Source of the DNA: Pseudobdellovibrionaceae bacterium
GTDB lineage: Bacteria; Bdellovibrionota; Bdellovibrionia; Bdellovibrionales; Bdellovibrionaceae
Direction: 5' to 3'
Length of the DNA: 64,000 nucleotides
Assembly (NCBI GenBank): GCA_947449255.1
Contig: CANFQX010000004.1
Coordinates: forward strand, 1-64,000
The translations under genes were made by a program, and so were the position numbers. A model generated the notes under the pieces. The model was not told where the DNA came from, made no database searches, and saw nothing but the letters and a program-made list of their open reading frames with translations. Below, piece after piece: positions 2,217 to 62,933 of the stretch. Position 1 is the first letter of the stretch, and each line of letters opens with the position of its first letter.

Positions 2217-2701
2217 AAAAACGTCTAAATCATAGCTAATTTATTGCATATAATGATGTAATTAAATCTTTAAGAGCTAAAATAATACATAATAGAATTA
2301 AATGAGAGAGGTTCAAAATCAACCCGATCCAAAAGATTGGTTTATTATTTTATACAGCTGATAAATCCTGATTGTTTACCTATTTAAAATACTCCTGTCA
2401 CAGCCAATGGCTACTCGCTCATTATTTTGGGCCTTACCGCACCCTTAAGAACAAAATTCTTTTTTAATTTTTATCTGCTTTTTCGGTCGCAATAAAAACA
2501 GCAGTGTTTCAAAAAAAAGTGTCGGGGTTCGATTACCTTTAAATTTCAACACCTTAGCCTCAAAAATTTCTCGCATCAAATCACATCATTTTTATTATTA
2601 CTCATTTATTCATTCCGCATTGCAGAGAAGTTAATCTGTTTTTGGGTCTGAACTTAACTGTTCAAAAGTTTTTCTAAACTAACTTTAACAAAGGGGATTT
2701 T
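2217..2701. other. AT-rich intergenic region with no recognised gene
   Basis: About 485 bases between the divergent hipB and the secreted-protein gene. It is AT-rich and stop-rich in all frames. A T-loop-like GGGGTTCGATTACC at about 2524 is not part of a tRNA. A good ribosome binding site (AAAGGGG) precedes the gene at 2702, whose promoter must lie here, but I cannot place it with confidence. Confidence 0.5.
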
Positions 2702-3160
2702 ATGGAACTTTCAAAAGGAAAAATGAAAATTATGGCATCTCTGTTGATGGGATTCGTGTTTTTGGCTCTTGGCCAGAGCGCTAAAGCTCAGTGTGCAAGC
2801 GGATCTCAAAGCAAAAGTGCTAGCCTGTGGGAAATGGACCCTGCAACTCGAACACCTCTCAGGGTGGTTGGAACAGTATCTAAGAAAGCTGTTTGGACTA
2901 CTGATAAAAAAACAGGTTTATGCCTTAGATATACTGATTACACTTTTACTTCCAGTTTAATTAAATATCCGAATGGAACAGGCTTATCTGCACACTCAAG
3001 TTCCAGCGGTCAAGTGTTTGCAAATGTTACGATTGCATTGGGGGCAATTAACGCGACAGTTCGCCTGCCTGGGGCTCTGTTAACTGCAGCCTCTTGCGTA
3101 GACAAGGTCGGACTCTATGACTCAGCCATGAAGCAATATTACACTAGCGGTTGCCTCTAA
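2702..3160 (+). CDS. Small secreted protein of unknown function
   Basis: A 152-residue protein with a typical Sec signal peptide (positive N-terminus, hydrophobic MASLLMGFVFLALG, cleavage expected near AKA-QC at about residue 30). The mature part is small, rich in Ser, Thr, Ala and Gly, and has four cysteines, one right after the cleavage region and one near the C-terminus, so disulfides are plausible. No family recognised. The ribosome binding site AAAGGGG is well placed before the ATG. It is monocistronic: a strong palindromic terminator follows within about 75 bases. Export to periplasm or outside is inferred from the signal peptide. Confidence 0.75.
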   Translation: MELSKGKMKIMASLLMGFVFLALGQSAKAQCASGSQSKSASLWEMDPATRTPLRVVGTVSKKAVWTTDKKTGLCLRYTDYTFTSSLIKYPNGTGLSAHSSSSGQVFANVTIALGAINATVRLPGALLTAASCVDKVGLYDSAMKQYYTSGCL

Positions 3161-3163
3161 TAT

Positions 3164-3206
3164 TGGTTGGTTCATTGGTAGATTGGTTTCTTAATTGGTT
3201 GGTTTG
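3164..3206 (+). repeat. Degenerate ATTGGT tandem repeat
   Basis: Just after the stop codon of the secreted protein, ATTGGT recurs four times in about 43 bases, with TGGTT fillers. It lies between the gene and its terminator, so it would be in the 3' untranslated part of the mRNA. No known role. Confidence 0.5.
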
Positions 3207-3232
3207 ACAGACATCGTTCTCGAGTGACATCC

Positions 3233-3277
3233 ATAATCCCTGCAGTGAATTCACTGCAGGGATTATGCTTTTCGTTT
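3233..3277. terminator. Perfect 34-bp palindrome, probable terminator
   Basis: Bases 3233-3266 form a perfect palindrome (arms ATAATCCCTGCAGTGAA and its complement) centred on GAATTC, followed by GCTTTTCGTTT. The GC-rich stem plus T-rich tail fits a Rho-independent terminator for the upstream secreted-protein gene. The stem is unusually long and has no unpaired loop in duplex form. Confidence 0.7.
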
Positions 3278-3404
3278 GTCATAAAACACCTTCTTCATCG
3301 TCGTATAGCTACGATTTGCGCTGAATTGATGGCATTATCAAGATTGGTGATTTTGGATTAATACTTTCAAGTCAGCTCCGTAATGAGCAATGTTAGGAAA
3401 CAAA

Positions 3405-5174
3405 ATGAATCCGCAAAATGAATTTGGTTTTTTAAAAAATCCCACCCAATACCTTTTTTTCACTGGTAAGGGTGGCGTCGGAAAAACATCACTTTCAACA
3501 GCAGTGGCCTTGAAGCTTGCTGATCAGGGAAAGTTTGTTCTTCTTATCAGTACCGATGCGGCCTCCAATCTTGATGAAATGCTCGGAATTCAATTGAGCA
3601 ATCAAGCCGTCACAGTTCCCGGCGCAGAGAGACTTTCTGTGCTGAATATAGACCCCACTCGCGCAGCCGAATCCTATAGACTGCGAGTCCTCGAACAAAT
3701 GGCCAAAGATGCAACGCCTGAAGAAAAATCAACCGTGCGCGAACAACTTTCTGGCGCCTGCACCACAGAGATCGCAGCCTTTGATGAGTTCTCTGGTCAC
3801 CTGGTTGGTGATAATTCAAAATACGACCACGTCATTTTTGATACGGCACCCACAGGACACACCCTTCGCCTTTTGAGTCTTCCAAAGGCGTGGACAGGTT
3901 TTTTAAAAGACAATGACAAAGGGGCTTCCTGCTTGGGTCCACACTCGGGATTAAAAATGCAAGAGTCTCTATTTCAAGCGGCTCTCAATGCTCTCACCGA
4001 TGGCTCAAAGACCACGGTCATTCTGGTTGCTCGTCCTGATAAGGGCTCTCTCTTTGAAGCTCATAGAACTTTACTTGATTTGCGAGAGCTTGGTTTTTAC
4101 AATCAGCGGCTTGTGATCAATGCTGTTTTTCACGCCAGCAACCCCCAGGATTCAATTGCTAAATCTATTGAGCAAGAGGGCTTTAAAGCCCTCAACGAAA
4201 TGCCTTCAGAACTTAAAGCACTTTCAAGGGACGAAATTCCACTGAGAGGATTTGACACTGTCGGCCTCCAAGCTCTGCGTGCCCTTCTTGCTTCCGACCC
4301 AGCAGTGATCCATTCCAATAAGGCGACTCAGCCCATCTCAATAAATTTAAATTCTTTCGGCCTTGATAAGCTTGCTGACGAATTGGCAAAAAATGATCGG
4401 GGACTGATCATGGTCATGGGCAAAGGTGGCGTCGGAAAAACTTCAATCGCTGCGGCACTTGCGGTCGGACTTGTTCAAAGAGGTAAAACAGTCCATCTGA
4501 ATACAACAGATCCTGCAGCTCACCTTGAAATGACTTTAAATGGAGCGATTGAAGGTCTTGTCGTCGGTCGGATTGATCCATTTGAGGAAACAAAAAAATA
4601 TGTTGCCAAAATTTTCGCTCAAAAAGAAAAAAACCTCACTCAAGCAGAGAAAGAATTATTAATCGAAGATCTTAAATCTCCTTGCACAGAAGAGGTCGCC
4701 GTATTTCACGCCTTCTCTAGAGTCGTTGCTGAAGCGAGAAGTTCATTTGTTGTTCTTGATACTGCTCCGACAGGACATTCCCTCTTATTGATGGATGCAA
4801 CGGGAGCCTATCATCGCCAGGTGATTCAAGAAATGAAAGGTAAAATCACGACGCCCCTCATGCGTCTACAGGACTCGGCCTACACCCAAATTATACTTGT
4901 CACACTTCCTGAAGTGACTCCTGTTTCACAAGCCGCAACTTTACAAGAAGATCTCCGCCGAGCACAAATTGAGCCTTATGCTTGGGTTTTAAATAAGAGC
5001 CTCCTCATGGCTGGAACTACGGATCCACTGCTGAGCCATCGCCTGGGCAGTGAACAAATGCAAATTGAACGGATCAACCTGGGACTGGGCCACCGCCTGT
5101 ATGCCGCTCCCTGGCTAGAAAAACCTCCGATCGGAATTGAAGAACTTTCTAAAATGGTGACTTCATCGAAATAA
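3405..5174 (+). CDS. arsA: ArsA-type tandem anion-transporting ATPase
   Basis: A 589-residue protein with two homologous ArsA/GET3-like halves. Each has a deviant Walker A (GKGGVGKTS at residues 21-29 and 340-347) and a DTAPTGH switch II signature (about 146-152 and 452-458). The arsenite/antimonite-binding cysteines of E. coli ArsA (113, 172, 422) have counterparts at C119 (GACTTEIAAFDEF), C176 (GASCLGP) and C427 (SPCTEEVAVF). This supports a metalloid-stimulated ATPase energising an ArsB pump. However, no arsB, arsD, arsR or acr3 lies nearby, so the partner is elsewhere or the role differs. The ATG at 3405 is preferred over 3390 because AGGA sits 7 bases upstream. No obvious operator. Confidence 0.85.
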   Translation: MNPQNEFGFLKNPTQYLFFTGKGGVGKTSLSTAVALKLADQGKFVLLISTDAASNLDEMLGIQLSNQAVTVPGAERLSVLNIDPTRAAESYRLRVLEQMAKDATPEEKSTVREQLSGACTTEIAAFDEFSGHLVGDNSKYDHVIFDTAPTGHTLRLLSLPKAWTGFLKDNDKGASCLGPHSGLKMQESLFQAALNALTDGSKTTVILVARPDKGSLFEAHRTLLDLRELGFYNQRLVINAVFHASNPQDSIAKSIEQEGFKALNEMPSELKALSRDEIPLRGFDTVGLQALRALLASDPAVIHSNKATQPISINLNSFGLDKLADELAKNDRGLIMVMGKGGVGKTSIAAALAVGLVQRGKTVHLNTTDPAAHLEMTLNGAIEGLVVGRIDPFEETKKYVAKIFAQKEKNLTQAEKELLIEDLKSPCTEEVAVFHAFSRVVAEARSSFVVLDTAPTGHSLLLMDATGAYHRQVIQEMKGKITTPLMRLQDSAYTQIILVTLPEVTPVSQAATLQEDLRRAQIEPYAWVLNKSLLMAGTTDPLLSHRLGSEQMQIERINLGLGHRLYAAPWLEKPPIGIEELSKMVTSSK

Positions 5175-56111: not shown

Positions 56112-56144
56112 CAAAATAGGGTGTTTTTTGCGGATTCGTCAAGG
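56112..56144. repeat. Left 33-bp direct repeat of the ATPase cassette
   Basis: CAAAATAGGGTG followed by six T and GCGGATTCGTCAAGG. The same sequence with seven T occurs at 57897-57930 in direct orientation. It spans exactly the dnaJ promoter. Confidence 0.9.
56113..56142 (-). promoter_or_regulatory. Promoter of dnaJ, inside the left direct repeat
   Basis: TTGACG (56142-56137) and TATTTT (56118-56113) are 18 bases apart on the minus strand and share CCTTGACGAA with the dnaK promoter. Transcription would start at about 56104-56107, at or next to the start codon. Confidence 0.6.
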
Positions 56145-56290
56145 GGGTTCACACAAGAATTCAGTGTAATTCCATAAAAATGCACTAAATCAAATTTCAA
56201 TTGATACTTAGAATATTTGGCATAGAGGGACCCCCAGGATCCATCTTGTTCTCTTGGGTTTAATTCTCATTCTGCATTATTAAGACTAAT

Positions 56291-56337
56291 CTCAAATTGC
56301 CCAACTGATTAAAAACACCACAGTTGGGCAATTTGAG
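56291..56337. repeat. Inverted repeat 1 upstream of the ATPase gene
   Basis: A perfect 17-bp stem (arms CTCAAATTGCCCAACTG at 56291-56307 and its complement at 56321-56337) with a 13-base loop. The core arm TCAAATTGCCCAACT is reused by inverted repeat 2. No T run follows, so it is not a typical terminator. Confidence 0.92.
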
Positions 56338-56354
56338 CATCAAATATGTTGATT

Positions 56355-56399
56355 TCAAATTGCCCAACTACTACATTTTTACATAGTTGGGCAATTTGA
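56355..56399. repeat. Inverted repeat 2 upstream of the ATPase gene
   Basis: A perfect 16-bp stem (TCAAATTGCCCAACTA at 56355-56370, complement at 56384-56399), again with a 13-base loop of unrelated sequence. Its centre lies 63 bp from that of repeat 1, close to six helical turns, and 61 bp before the ATPase start codon. Confidence 0.92.
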
Positions 56400-56437
56400 G
56401 ATGCAATCCTTGAGATTGAAGAAAGTCGAGATTTCTG

Positions 56438-57874
56438 ATGTTTATTGGGCGAGAATATGAGCTAAAGCAATTAAACGAAATGAAAAAAAGCAGCAGAGCT
56501 GAGCTCGTTGTTGTTTATGGGCGGCGTCGCGTAGGCAAGTCAGCTCTATTGGAACAAATCATTCAAGGATCAGAGGATTACTTTTTTGAAGCAGTAAAAG
56601 GACTTACAAAGAAGAAACAAATTTCTCATTTTTTAAAGCAACTCGAGGAAATGACCAGAACAAAAACTACTATTGCTTCGTCCTGGCAGGAGGCCTTTGA
56701 TCAATTGACCCCCCATATTGAATCTGGAGCTCACACCCTGATATTTGATGAATTTCCCTGGATGGCTTCGGAAAAGATAGAATTGGTTTCTATTTTGAAA
56801 TATTACTGGGACCGCAAGTGGAAAAAAAATAACGAGCTGAAGTTGGTCTTGTGCGGCTCCGTAGCCAATTATATGATTAAACACCTTATTCATTCTGAGG
56901 CACTTCATAATAGAAAAACACTTGAAATGAAAATTGACCCCTTATCCGCTAATGAAGCTAAGTTATTCTTTAAAAACAAAAGATCTCTATTTGAGATTTG
57001 TAAATTTTTGATGATCTTTGGTGGGATCCCTAAATATTTGGAACAAATAAATCCAAATCTTTCTTTTGAACAAAACCTAGATAAGTTGTGTTTTATGAAA
57101 AACAGTTTTTTTACCAATGAGTTTGAAACAGTCTTTAAAGAACAATTTAAAACGATAAAAAAATATGAACCCATTGTGCAAATTTTAAGTGCTGGAAAGA
57201 AGACAAAAGAAGACTTGCAGACCCAAACTCAAAGTACGAGAGGCGGAGGCTTTGGAACACTCTTGCATCAGCTCGAAATGGCTGGATTTATATCCAAAGA
57301 AATATCACTAAACTTTGAAGTGGGACGTCGGAAGTCACGCACACAAAAGTATACTCTTTGGGATGAGTGGCTTAAATTTTATCTAACTTACATGAAAAAA
57401 AATTCTCGCTTAATTCAAAATCAGACAAGTGGTGGTCTCTCTGGGCGTCTTATTGGGAACAGCCTTCCCTCCTATTTAGGCTTATTTTTTGAAACCTTTT
57501 GTCAAAAAAATATCACTCAGATTATCAAATCGCTGAATATTGAGCCTGCAACTATCATCGATATTGGCCCCTACTTTAGGCAAAGTTCAAAAAATAAAGA
57601 GGGAAAGCCTCTAAACAAAAAAAACCAAGGCTTGCAGCTTGATTTGTGTATTGTCAGAAAAGGACGGATCATTACTGCAATAGAATGTAAATTTAAAGAG
57701 TCTTCCGTTGGCACTGATGTTATCAAGGAAATGGACGACAAGATTGCTAAACTTAATCTTGCAAAAAATATCACCCTAGAGCGCGTTTTGATTTCAGCAT
57801 CGGGAGTCACCCCGGAGGTTGAGGCATCGGATTACTTCCACAGAATTCTAGGGCTGGAAGCAATTTTTAACTGA
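56438..57874 (+). CDS. AAA-type ATPase_2 with C-terminal DUF234/PD-(D/E)XK-like domain
   Basis: A 478-residue protein of the archaeal/bacterial ATPase_2 family (COG1672-like). Walker A is YGRRRVGKSALLE (P-loop at 28-35), Walker B LIFDEFPWM (D104, E105), sensor-like LVLCGSVANYM, and the family motif FGGIPKYLE (about 195-202). A winged-helix region (about 245-310, FGTLLHQLEMAGFI) leads to a C-terminal nuclease-like core with D402 (LDLCIVRKG) and E416-x-K418 (AIECKF), the PD-(D/E)XK spacing. Biological role of this family is not established; links to mobile DNA or defence have been suggested. The gene is AT-rich, alone in its cassette, and preceded by two matched inverted repeats. It is uninterrupted, so probably expressed. 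Confidence 0.87.
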   Translation: MFIGREYELKQLNEMKKSSRAELVVVYGRRRVGKSALLEQIIQGSEDYFFEAVKGLTKKKQISHFLKQLEEMTRTKTTIASSWQEAFDQLTPHIESGAHTLIFDEFPWMASEKIELVSILKYYWDRKWKKNNELKLVLCGSVANYMIKHLIHSEALHNRKTLEMKIDPLSANEAKLFFKNKRSLFEICKFLMIFGGIPKYLEQINPNLSFEQNLDKLCFMKNSFFTNEFETVFKEQFKTIKKYEPIVQILSAGKKTKEDLQTQTQSTRGGGFGTLLHQLEMAGFISKEISLNFEVGRRKSRTQKYTLWDEWLKFYLTYMKKNSRLIQNQTSGGLSGRLIGNSLPSYLGLFFETFCQKNITQIIKSLNIEPATIIDIGPYFRQSSKNKEGKPLNKKNQGLQLDLCIVRKGRIITAIECKFKESSVGTDVIKEMDDKIAKLNLAKNITLERVLISASGVTPEVEASDYFHRILGLEAIFN

Positions 57875-57896
57875 AGACTTTTTCGAGAGCGCAGTT

Positions 57897-57930
57897 CAAA
57901 ATAGGGTGTTTTTTTGCGGATTCGTCAAGG
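57897..57930. repeat. Right 34-bp direct repeat with a spare copy of the dnaJ promoter
   Basis: Matches 56112-56144 except for one extra T. It keeps both hexamers (TTGACG at 57928-57923, TATTTT at 57903-57898, 19-base spacer) on the minus strand, now pointing into the 3' end of the ATPase gene as a possible antisense promoter. Confidence 0.88.
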
Positions 57931-59669: not shown

Positions 59670-60154
59670 GTGGGATCCACTGAGTTCTCTAGATTAACAA
59701 ACGCTAGAGATTCCCTCACTGGTAGAGCATCAAAGGTCAGAGTATTTCCATTTACCCTGTCCGAAGTAAAACATTTGCCTTTAAATTCAAACAATTTCTT
59801 TGTCCAAAACAAATCATGCGTGGATAGAATTGAGTCGGATCTTATATCCAGAATTTTGCAAGGTCTTTCAACCCTAGATGCACTTCAAAGACCCAAAGGG
59901 GTGTACAATTTGATTTGCTTTGGCAAAGAAAAGACGGCGTTATTCAAATCTTTGAAATGAAATATTCCGAGTCACCATTTAAATTGGAAAAAAACTACGC
60001 TAAGGCATTAAGCGATAAAATAGAAATTTTTAAGGAAAAAACTAAATTCAAAGGACAGGTCTTTTTAACGCTTGTTTCACCATTTGGCTTGGCTCCAGGC
60101 CTATGGAATGATGATATTATTGATAGCGTCGTTGATCTCAATGAAATCTGGTAA
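59670..60154 (+). pseudogene. Broken or fused ATPase remnant (AAA_14 middle, ATPase C-terminus)
   Basis: Two overlapping plus-strand frames. The first (59670-59960) opens GSTEFSRLTNARDSLTGRAS with RVFPFTLSE, the sensor and post-ATPase part of AAA_14/DUF4143 proteins. The second (from about 59890) reads GVQFDLLWQRKDGVIQIFEMKYS and ends SPFGLAPGLWNDDIIDSVVDLNEIW, a typical nuclease-like C-terminus of related ATPases. A frameshift or deletion joins them. No P-loop remains. Its last codons form part of the 60-bp direct repeat. Confidence 0.65.
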
Positions 60155-60195
60155 AAAACAGGCTTTTATCAATTCAGCCAAATCTTAAGCAACAC
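60136..60195. repeat. Left 60-bp direct repeat of the second ATPase unit
   Basis: Starts TCTCAATGAAATCTGG and ends CAACAC. It matches 61468-61527 at 56 of 60 bases without gaps. The repeat includes the last codons (LNEIW stop) of the ATPase remnant and the left arm ATCAATTCAGCCAAATCT of an inverted repeat whose right arm is missing here. Confidence 0.9.
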
Positions 60196-60208
60196 AAAAG
60201 TCCACTCA

Positions 60209-60257: not shown

Positions 60258-60368
60258 ATGAAGACTGAAAAACGTAATTTATCACCCATTGTGAAAGAAC
60301 TCTTGGCAAAAAAACGGTCTTTCAAGGGGGGACCTAGACAGGTTGCCAAACCTTCGGCTTTAAAGTGA
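60258..60368 (+). pseudogene. N-terminal remnant of an AAA_14-type ATPase
   Basis: The frame MKTEKRNLSPIVKELLAKKR continues SFKGGPRQVAKP, the start of AAA_14/DUF4143 ATPases up to Walker A (family GPRQVGKTT). The glycine is changed to Ala, and after the lysine codon the frame passes into the left arm of an inverted repeat and stops. So the gene was cut within its P-loop codons. Confidence 0.7.
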
Positions 60369-60388
60369 TCAATTAAAACCCGAAGGTT
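60349..60388. repeat. Inverted repeat 1 of the second ATPase unit
   Basis: AACCTTCGGCTTT pairs with AAACCCGAAGGTT with one mismatch, 14-base loop. The arm core AACCTTCGG is shared with the next inverted repeat. GATCAATTAAA beside the right arm reappears inverted at 60481-60490. Confidence 0.88.
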
Positions 60389-60440: not shown

Positions 60441-60482
60441 AAACCTTCGGTTTTGTCATGTATCTATGAAACCCGAAGGTTT
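60441..60482. repeat. Inverted repeat 2 of the second ATPase unit
   Basis: AAACCTTCGGTTTT pairs with AAACCCGAAGGTTT with one mismatch, again with a 14-base loop. It directly abuts the ATPase_2 fragment. A possible -35 TTGACA lies between the two repeats at about 60430. Confidence 0.88.
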
Positions 60483-60490
60483 AATTGATC

Positions 60491-61450
60491 TTACAGACAA
60501 GGTCTGATATCAATGTCGAGCCATTTTCAATTGCTGAAGTTTCTACACATTATTTTCCAAAATATAAACTTGAAGAGGTCATGTTTATTTATATGCTTGT
60601 TGGAGGAATCCCTTATTACCTCAACCAGTTTCAGAAAAACGAAAATTTTATTCAAACAATCAATAAAACACTTTTCACAAAAGAGAGCATTTTTTACGAA
60701 GAAGTTGATGAAATTTTGAGACTTGAATTTAATTCAGCAGGCATCCTCACCGTTAAAAAAATTTTGGCGACTTTAGGAATTTCTGGACGAATTCTTAATG
60801 ATATTCAAAGAAAAACTAAACTTGCCATTGGCACACTGAGTGAGTCTCTCGATAAGCTTATTGAGTATGGAATTGTCTTTGAAAGCCGTTCATTTTTTCA
60901 ACGTCAGCTTGAAATAAAACGCGGTGTAAAATTTAAATTAAAGGACTTTTATCTAAATACCTATTTTCAAATTATAAAGCCAAATTTAAATAAAATAAAA
61001 AGAAACACCGAGAATGAGTTACTTATCAATGGTATTTTCAAATGGCCACAGTCTTTTTATTATGTCGAAAATTTTTCAGGTGGGTCATTTGAAAATTTAG
61101 TTGAATATATCCTAATCTCTAGTGAAAAAAGACACGAAGGCATTTTTAAAAAATTTAATCTGGTCAATATAAATTTTGAGATGGAAACCCATTGGGACAA
61201 GGAAAAGCAGATAGATCTTATTGCATCTTCAACAGAAGATAAGCAAATGCGTTTAATTGAATGCAAATGGACATCGTCAATTGAATTAATAAAATCTGCA
61301 CTCCTTAATCTGCCAAAAAAAGCAAAACTTTTTGATTTCGAAGCAGCACCTCTCCTTGCCGTTGTTATTCCAATTAAAGCGACAGGCCCGATTCTCGAAC
61401 TAGCCAATCAGCAAAATATTATTCTAATAACACAAGAAGATCTAATTTAA
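60491..61450 (+). pseudogene. ATPase_2/DUF234 fragment lacking the P-loop
   Basis: About 319 codons remain. The frame starts within RSDINVEPFSIAEV, the strand after Walker B/sensor in ATPase_2 proteins, and keeps VGGIPYYLNQF, the winged helix (TLSESLDKLIEYGIVFE) and the nuclease-like C-terminus with IDLIAS and LIECKW (D and E-x-K). About 180 N-terminal residues including both Walker motifs are absent; the only upstream start is a TTG inside the hairpin. Thus it is probably non-functional as an ATPase, though the long open frame suggests recent loss or a retained DNA-binding role. Confidence 0.72.
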
Positions 61451-61467
61451 GTCCTTGCAGTCATTGG

Positions 61468-61527
61468 TCTCAATGAAATCTGTTAAAAAATAGGATTTTA
61501 TCAATTCAGCCAAATCTTAAACAACAC
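61468..61527. repeat. Right 60-bp direct repeat of the second ATPase unit
   Basis: Partner of 60136-60195, four mismatches. Read in frame it still encodes LNEI followed by Cys and a stop, a relic of the same ATPase tail. Confidence 0.9.
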
Positions 61528-61548
61528 ATGAGATTTGGCTGAATTGAT
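61500..61548. repeat. 18-bp perfect inverted repeat with 13-base loop
   Basis: ATCAATTCAGCCAAATCT (61500-61517) and its complement (61531-61548). The loop length equals that of the two hairpins at 56.3 kb. TTGTTTTG follows, so a terminator role on the plus strand is possible. Confidence 0.88.
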
Positions 61549-61658: not shown

Positions 61659-62933
61659 CTAAAGGCCTTGTCTTTTTAGACTAACACAGCGATCTTCAAT
61701 CAGTTCTGAGATTCGCAGGATAATTTTTGCTTTGGGATAGGTTTTTATTATTTCACTAGCAACTAAATCTTTATGCTTCATGAGTTCTTTCTTAATCAGT
61801 TGCATCCTTTCACTCATGGTCCCTACCTTAAGCCCAAGTTCGGAATCGATCAATTCAAATTGATTTTTACCTACACGGCAAGCATCCGTTCGATCACCAA
61901 TTTTAAATGAAAAATTTCTTTTTAATTTTGGATAAATTGCCGTACACATCAGATCATAAAATGGCGCAAGTTCAATTTTATCATATTTGATCAGGAAAGA
62001 TAAATTCTTTGAATGACTATCATTATTGCCAATAAGAAGATTAAAACAAATCCAGTCTAAATAATTAAAAAGCGCTGTGGCTCTTTGCTTTATCGTTACA
62101 TTTTTTTTAATGAGCTCAAAATTGTCTTTCAGTGTTGGGCCACCCTTTTCTTCATACTTTTCCTCACTCACTATGCCCTGAGCCTGGCAAAAATCTTGTT
62201 GATGGATCCGATGGTTTTCGCCGTTTTTATCTATAAAGCGATCATATCTTTCTGTAATAAAAAGCGGATAACCATCTTTCTCAAAGATAAAGCAATCTGA
62301 AACGACAAAGCCAATCGCCTTTGCCAATTTCATACAATAGAATTCGTTATAAACAGAATCTTTGACACCAGATCTATTTATAGGAACTTTTATGATATGG
62401 GTCGTGGGTCGACCGTTTGTTGGCAAGTAAAATTCATTATTCCTGAATATGCCCGCAAATTTATCTTGCGCTCCGGCGATGGAAAGAAAGCCTGGATCCA
62501 TCTCAGAAATTACTTCCGCAACTGATTTCTTTTGCTCGATAGCTTTATAAATTTTTACCTTATCTAATTTAATTTCCTTCGCCCCTTTCTTTTTAAAAGG
62601 AGATACCAACTCATGGGTGATTATAACAGCTCCTGCACAATCGGAGCCGAATTCATCCAAAAAATCAAATGTGCCTTGAATATGATGACTTTTTTCTAAG
62701 GTGTCGCGAGCCTCACCTTCGGGCAAAAGATTTTCAAAAAATGAAAGTGTGATTCTATTCCCAAAGGGCTCTGCCTGAAGAGGCATCGCCAAGCTCAATT
62801 GAAATTTCTTTGGATGTATGAGCCATTCTTTGCTGTAGGTAAAAGAATAGACCAGTTCACGATCTTGATTCAGCACTCCTACCAATAACTCTTCAAAAAA
62901 AACATTAAGATATTTGATATTTAATTTACTCAT
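61659..62933 (-). CDS. hipA: HipA-family kinase toxin (second system)
   Basis: A 424-residue HipA with all expected motifs: N-terminal domain (LSFFENLLPEGEARDTLE), the flexible loop LSIAGAQDKFAG whose Ser is the usual autophosphorylation site, the IIKVPI segment, ERYDRF, catalytic NNDSHSKNLSFL and metal-binding APFYDLM. It should phosphorylate a translation target when free of antitoxin. Its start overlaps the antitoxin stop by 4 bases. In contrast to the first HipA of the window the Asp of the AP-x-YDL motif is intact, so this copy looks fully competent. Confidence 0.92.
   Translation of the reverse strand: MSKLNIKYLNVFFEELLVGVLNQDRELVYSFTYSKEWLIHPKKFQLSLAMPLQAEPFGNRITLSFFENLLPEGEARDTLEKSHHIQGTFDFLDEFGSDCAGAVIITHELVSPFKKKGAKEIKLDKVKIYKAIEQKKSVAEVISEMDPGFLSIAGAQDKFAGIFRNNEFYLPTNGRPTTHIIKVPINRSGVKDSVYNEFYCMKLAKAIGFVVSDCFIFEKDGYPLFITERYDRFIDKNGENHRIHQQDFCQAQGIVSEEKYEEKGGPTLKDNFELIKKNVTIKQRATALFNYLDWICFNLLIGNNDSHSKNLSFLIKYDKIELAPFYDLMCTAIYPKLKRNFSFKIGDRTDACRVGKNQFELIDSELGLKVGTMSERMQLIKKELMKHKDLVASEIIKTYPKAKIILRISELIEDRCVSLKRQGL

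Follow-up and report, generated by a model that had tools for sequence, protein, structure and literature searches.

The window, by which we mean the whole stretch of 64,000 nucleotides that was analysed (contig CANFQX010000004.1 of a Pseudobdellovibrionaceae bacterium), contains an insert of about 1.75 kb between a TPR gene and dnaJ. The insert is bounded by a direct repeat: the 33 nt of the left copy (CAAAATAGGGTGTTTTTTGCGGATTCGTCAAGG) reappear at the right as 34 nt, the difference being one extra T, and the comparison between the two scores 30, whereas every other comparison in the window at a spacing of about 1.5 kb scores at most 12. The intervening DNA holds two hairpins and a single complete gene, which encodes a protein of 478 amino acids (Table 1). 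The stem of the hairpins was found only at the dnaJ locus, plus one half site with two mismatches. An earlier, sequence-only reading of this DNA had described both the repeat with its extra T and a content limited to a hairpin pair and one complete ATPase gene, and both were recovered.

Table 1. Positions of the features of the dnaJ insert and of the second family member in the window
Feature	Position	Strand	Remarks
Left direct-repeat copy, dnaJ core promoter	56112..56144	-	-35 TTGACG 56142-56137, -10 TATTTT 56118-56113; single copy conserved in congeners
Leader, repeat to hairpin 1, 144 nt	56145..56288		unlike the leaders of the genome's other copies
Hairpin 1	56289..56337		17-bp perfect stem, 13-nt loop
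Predicted promoter of the ATPase gene, TTGATT-17-TACATT	56349..56377	+	from sequence, by consensus scan; overlaps hairpin 2
Hairpin 2	56352..56402		stem nearly identical to that of hairpin 1
AAA+ ATPase / winged helix / PD-(D/E)XK gene, 478 aa (ATPase_2, DUF234; PADLOC PDC-S27)	56438..57874	+	
Right direct-repeat copy, orphan dnaJ promoter	57897..57930	-	one extra T; spacer 19
Second member, left copy of 69-nt direct repeat	60128..60196	+	
Second member, hairpin 1 (AACCTTCGG...CCGAAGGTT)	60349..60388		
Second member, hairpin 2	60441..60482		read from sequence
Second member, N-terminally truncated gene	60485..61450	+	P-loop domain missing, DUF234 kept
Second member, right copy of 69-nt direct repeat	61460..61528	+	91%

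The encoded protein scores above the curated cut-offs of the Pfam domains ATPase_2 (PF01637; 68.0 versus 33.2 bits) and DUF234 (PF03008; 27.3 versus 22.5 bits). The PADLOC model for PDC-S27 (PDLC04984) matches residues 2-477 (E 2.1e-94) and represents the same protein family over its full length. In the predicted structure (mean pLDDT 93, pTM 0.90) the secondary structure fits an AAA+ ATPase (residues 1-205), a winged helix (~240-308) and a PD-(D/E)XK domain (~310-478), and in 35 diverse members the Walker A and Walker B motifs and the nuclease residues E352, D402, E416 and K418 are invariant. The nearest solved folds, as identified by Foldseek, are those of the archaeal AAA+ ATPases 2QEN and 2FNA, followed by Orc/Cdc6 initiators and NLR/STAND proteins. 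The match to 2QEN, 2FNA and Orc/Cdc6 spans the ATPase plus the winged helix, which are alike in fold, whereas the 478-aa protein carries a nuclease domain, and we know of no such domain in 2QEN, 2FNA or the Orc/Cdc6 proteins. Orc/Cdc6 attaches to origins without cutting DNA. That domains of this kind can in general bind and cleave DNA is established, and by analogy the proteins of the PDC-S27 family may do so as well.

The only convincing gene between positions 56145 and 57896 is without a transposase match in Pfam, NCBIfam or PHROGs, in line with the earlier remark that a recognised transposase is lacking. Genes for a DDE, HUH, tyrosine or serine recombinase are absent from the unit and so is an integrase; the copies lie at unrelated sites, i.e. 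there is no fixed attachment site.

Read on the minus strand the direct repeat has the structure CC-TTGACG-AATCCGCAAAAAACACCC-TATTTT-G, a promoter of the sigma-70 type with its end 7 nt upstream of the dnaJ start codon. The 33-mer occurs once in the 3.21-Mb genome with up to three mismatches tolerated, in an ungapped search that the 34-nt copy escapes. In all 11 congeners with a readable gap between the TPR gene and dnaJ, the gap is short and contains one diverged copy of the promoter and no ATPase gene, which points to an insertion that duplicated its target. The promoter copies of the congeners match the repeat at only 19-24 of the 33 positions, whereas the two copies in the window agree at 33 of 33 apart from the one T, so the second promoter copy was made in this lineage; most simply, it would have arisen together with the insertion. 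These alignments show that the unit entered the dnaJ promoter with a 33-bp duplication and that dnaJ kept its promoter. Insertion into this promoter with target duplication had been proposed beforehand, and the expected empty site with a single repeat copy is what the congeners display. Neither of the two findings named as speaking against it was encountered: none of the relatives carries the ATPase at dnaJ, a search of 59 of them having returned no homologue of the gene, and copies of the 33-bp repeat are not scattered through the genome. The orphan promoter at the right is antisense to the ATPase gene, towards whose 3' end it points, and an antisense RNA could arise from it.

The family occupies five places in this genome: three complete genes (the window copy, C6 (37%) and C3 (33%)), one N-terminally truncated gene and one fragment. 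Each of the three complete genes and the truncated one has a hairpin pair directly upstream, and the four stems are unrelated, which argues against one shared transposase for all of them. Since the truncated gene also lies in the window, the layout of long repeat, leader of about 150 nt, hairpin pair, gene and short tail is found there twice. The 69-nt repeat of this second member takes in the 3' end of an upstream ORF together with part of its terminator; by eye, this ORF looks like an older ATPase relic. Further ATPase genes have likely left relics at 59915-60154 (a C-terminal piece, without Pfam support) and at 60258-60365 (an N-terminal piece of 36 aa without a Pfam match, in which GGPRQV resembles the start of the AAA_14 Walker A), and the copies seem to be nested, with the truncated second copy beside and around these two pieces. 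The ATPase relics are adjoined by a HipA-family kinase gene on the minus strand (61662-62933; HipA_C E 1.8e-46, Couple_hipA). A microsatellite, (ATCTA)n, was observed just downstream of the C3 copy (L015, 4550-4612).

The patchy spread ascribed to the family by the sequence-only reading is evident in the order to which the window belongs, where 4 of 141 genomes carry it, at 4-11 places each; elsewhere up to 48 matches per genome were counted. Nine pairs of loci (76-93% identical), one of them inside a single genome (L170/L169, 92%), have in common essentially just one block of 1.5-2.0 kb within 10-19 kb. The block measures 1.5-1.7 kb, reaching 2.0 kb in the pair L188/L213, in which the flanking repeats are common to both loci too. 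Its left boundary coincides with the outer edge of hairpin 1 or lies close to it, and its right boundary is close to the stop codon; a conserved right end was not found among the compared units. The pairs L218/L182 and L161/L208 (98%) were withdrawn as proof of transposition, because a wider comparison revealed the same neighbourhoods, with neighbours exchanged at the ends of the unit. In the rumen Kiritimatiellae relatives L309, L310 and L311, the ends of the unit mark precisely where whole neighbouring stretches have been gained or lost. In 16 congeners no clean empty site was found for L098, L182 or L170, and the L182 site in G095 contains a relic of the unit from which the middle of the gene has been deleted.

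A scan of 84,980 species genomes yielded 80 loci from many phyla, to which 100 further loci from multicopy genomes were added. At least one hairpin is found within 220 nt upstream of 141 of the 169 distinct genes, as compared to 15 of 338 dinucleotide shuffles and 10 of 162 windows further upstream. Together with the start of the shared block at or near hairpin 1, this bears out the earlier assignment of the hairpins to the unit. The stem co-varies with the protein (Mantel r 0.27, p<=0.001): it is shared by 75-80% of the pairs with at least 70% protein identity and by about 0.5% of those below 40%, and some stems, e.g. GGGCACGAAAT, have remained the same in Fibrobacter and Kiritimatiellae, whose proteins are about 51% identical. 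In the 0.71 Mb of DNA covered, 89 of 90 cognate hairpins are located within 400 nt of a family gene, and dispersed REP- or MITE-like repeats were consequently rejected for these genomes. A right-end hairpin that could serve as second terminus was also rejected, a cognate stem following the gene within 150 nt in only 6 of 119 cases. The predicted promoters lie mostly over or just downstream of the hairpins, although the overlap between the two is no more than random, and this position disfavours hairpins that act as RNA. An operon-like link to the downstream gene, hinted at by some Kiritimatiellae loci, was discarded, the next ORF lying on the same strand in 66 cases and on the opposite strand in 78.

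In phage WO of the Wolbachia strain wRi the gene is present with two hairpins between gpC and gpD. The WO phages of wVitA and wKue are without the gene, and their spacers keep one and two related hairpins, respectively, from which it follows that the hairpins predate or outlive the gene in that lineage. Where WO phages lack the ATPase, the spacer between gpC and gpD was seen to hold one to three related palindromes (L341 1075-1149, L342 1384-1524, L343 941-1369), and in the wMel_KL phage the spacer holds a mobile-element gene.

Long direct repeats (score at least 20) surround 24 of the 167 genes, versus 0 of 1326 mismatched flank pairs and 0 of 147 displaced windows. Of the other ORFs at the same loci, 7 of 374 have flanking repeats, and four of these seven are ATPase-family genes. 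The repeats measure 15-256 nt and vary in identity as well, and some were judged to be dispersed intergenic repeats or extra hairpins, so that the true target duplications are fewer than 24. At L161 the start of the downstream gene lies within a 76-bp repeat. When the flanks are joined so as to keep a single repeat copy, they align with G097 over 423 nt (96%); the downstream gene of G097 differs from that of G080, which makes this an imperfect empty site. At L098 a gene that by eye is hsdR-like has its start restored by an exact repeat of 23 bp. At L208 the unit replaces a gene that is present in G097, and loss of target DNA is therefore another outcome. The sequence-only reading had raised, as a check, whether homologues lie between direct repeats too, and had suggested that a mobile or selfish unit integrates with a long target duplication. 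The first holds for a minority that stands well out from the controls, most family members being without a detectable long repeat, and the second is upheld at dnaJ but not as a general rule.

Taken together, the insert is very probably one copy of a mobile unit that consists of the hairpins and the gene. The best explanation for its movement, unproven and in our estimate evenly poised, is that the encoded protein moves the unit itself. The unit comprises two tandem hairpins with a unit-specific stem, a predicted promoter and one gene for an ATPase/winged-helix/nuclease protein. At the left end of its own unit, the winged helix would recognise the cognate palindromes; the complex would be assembled by the ATPase, and the nuclease would nick the target strands in a staggered manner, after which fill-in would give rise to long, variable direct repeats; alternatively, a neighbour would be lost. 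To this full account, a single-gene mobile unit with recognition, assembly and staggered nicking by its own protein, we give even chances. That it represents a new class of self-moving element, characterized by an AAA+/winged-helix/PD-(D/E)XK protein, its own hairpins and long variable duplications, is put forward tentatively, at slightly less than even chances. The hairpins are probably also the operator of the gene, and the two roles can coexist; an operator function alone would explain the hairpins and their co-variation with the protein equally. Against this account stand the many copies without a long repeat, the absence of a conserved right end and the solo hairpins in WO.

It is possible, though we consider it unlikely, that the gene is an ordinary PDC-S27 phage-defence gene spread by horizontal transfer, with an ATPase that detects infection and a nuclease that degrades nucleic acid; its movement would be passive and the repeats a side effect. 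The paired palindromes would then be an operator through which the protein represses its own promoter, in line with the promoters predicted over or just downstream of the hairpins and with the stem-protein co-variation, which suits a repressor-operator pair. The full-length match to the PADLOC model and the STAND/NLR-like folds among the structural matches agree with defence as well. However, up to 48 matches per genome, or 4-11 places in the few carriers of an order, would be unusual for a defence gene; the sharp ends of the unit at unrelated sites and the excess of flanking repeats are left unexplained, and no validation of defence was found in the literature.

We deem it improbable that a selfish or neutral cassette is moved by others, be it by a transposase acting in trans or by illegitimate or homology-assisted recombination, with the target sometimes duplicated and sometimes deleted. 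The variable length and identity of the repeats, the gene replaced at L208, the repeats that L188 and L213 share besides the unit and the lack of a conserved right end would all fit such a cassette. Yet left ends fall at hairpin 1 repeatedly, a single enzyme in trans would not give stems that differ within a genome and still follow the protein, and the near-identity of the promoter copies in the window, set against 19-24 of 33 positions in the congeners, indicates a copy made in this lineage. It is extremely improbable that the dnaJ promoter was first duplicated in tandem by an unrelated local event and that the gene fell in later: the one-base difference does show that divergence between the copies has started, but two events would have had to strike one place independently, and the second copy in the window and other loci also have long repeats.

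Tn7-type elements likewise combine a PD-(D/E)XK nuclease with an AAA+ ATPase, as TnsA and TnsC. The unit differs in having one fused protein, no DDE transposase, no terminal inverted repeats and no fixed 5-bp duplication; a TnsA/TnsB/TnsC set is not present, the single gene being without a Tns match in Pfam. The ends of a classical transposon, with inverted repeats at both sides and a short fixed duplication, were not found either, given the 6 of 119 genes with a stem at the right and repeats of 15-256 nt. REPtrons, in which a RAYT gene is accompanied by REP palindromes that the gene product recognises (PMC3733652), resemble the unit in having one gene with short DNA palindromes. However, the RAYT is a HUH tyrosine transposase and REPs are dispersed, whereas the unit encodes an AAA+/PD-(D/E)XK protein without a HUH domain and carries hairpins on the 5' side, with a unit-specific stem that is not dispersed.

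The sequence family itself was known already: PDC-S27 has been reported from 3,503 archaeal and 4,562 bacterial loci, and for most such defence candidates validation of phage protection is pending (PMC12988326). In the portions of the literature consulted it figures solely as a single-gene candidate defence system, with no mention of hairpins, unit ends, target duplications or mobility; our literature search returned no account of hairpins, unit ends or mobility for this family. If self-movement holds, no known transposon class fits the unit; if not, the unit comes down to a variant of a candidate defence gene that is already known. A mobile unit with cognate hairpins would imply movement of DNA without a known transposase, part of the catalogued candidate anti-phage systems would be mobile elements, and surveys of defence genes would read differently. 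The AAA_14/DUF4143 proteins may form a further branch, a sister family that may be mobile too. Each gene adjoins its own predicted recognition site, so that a direct test is possible.

At L118 an ATPase gene on the minus strand (2399-3704), which by eye is AAA_14/DUF4143-like, was observed between the copies of a long direct repeat (score 114).
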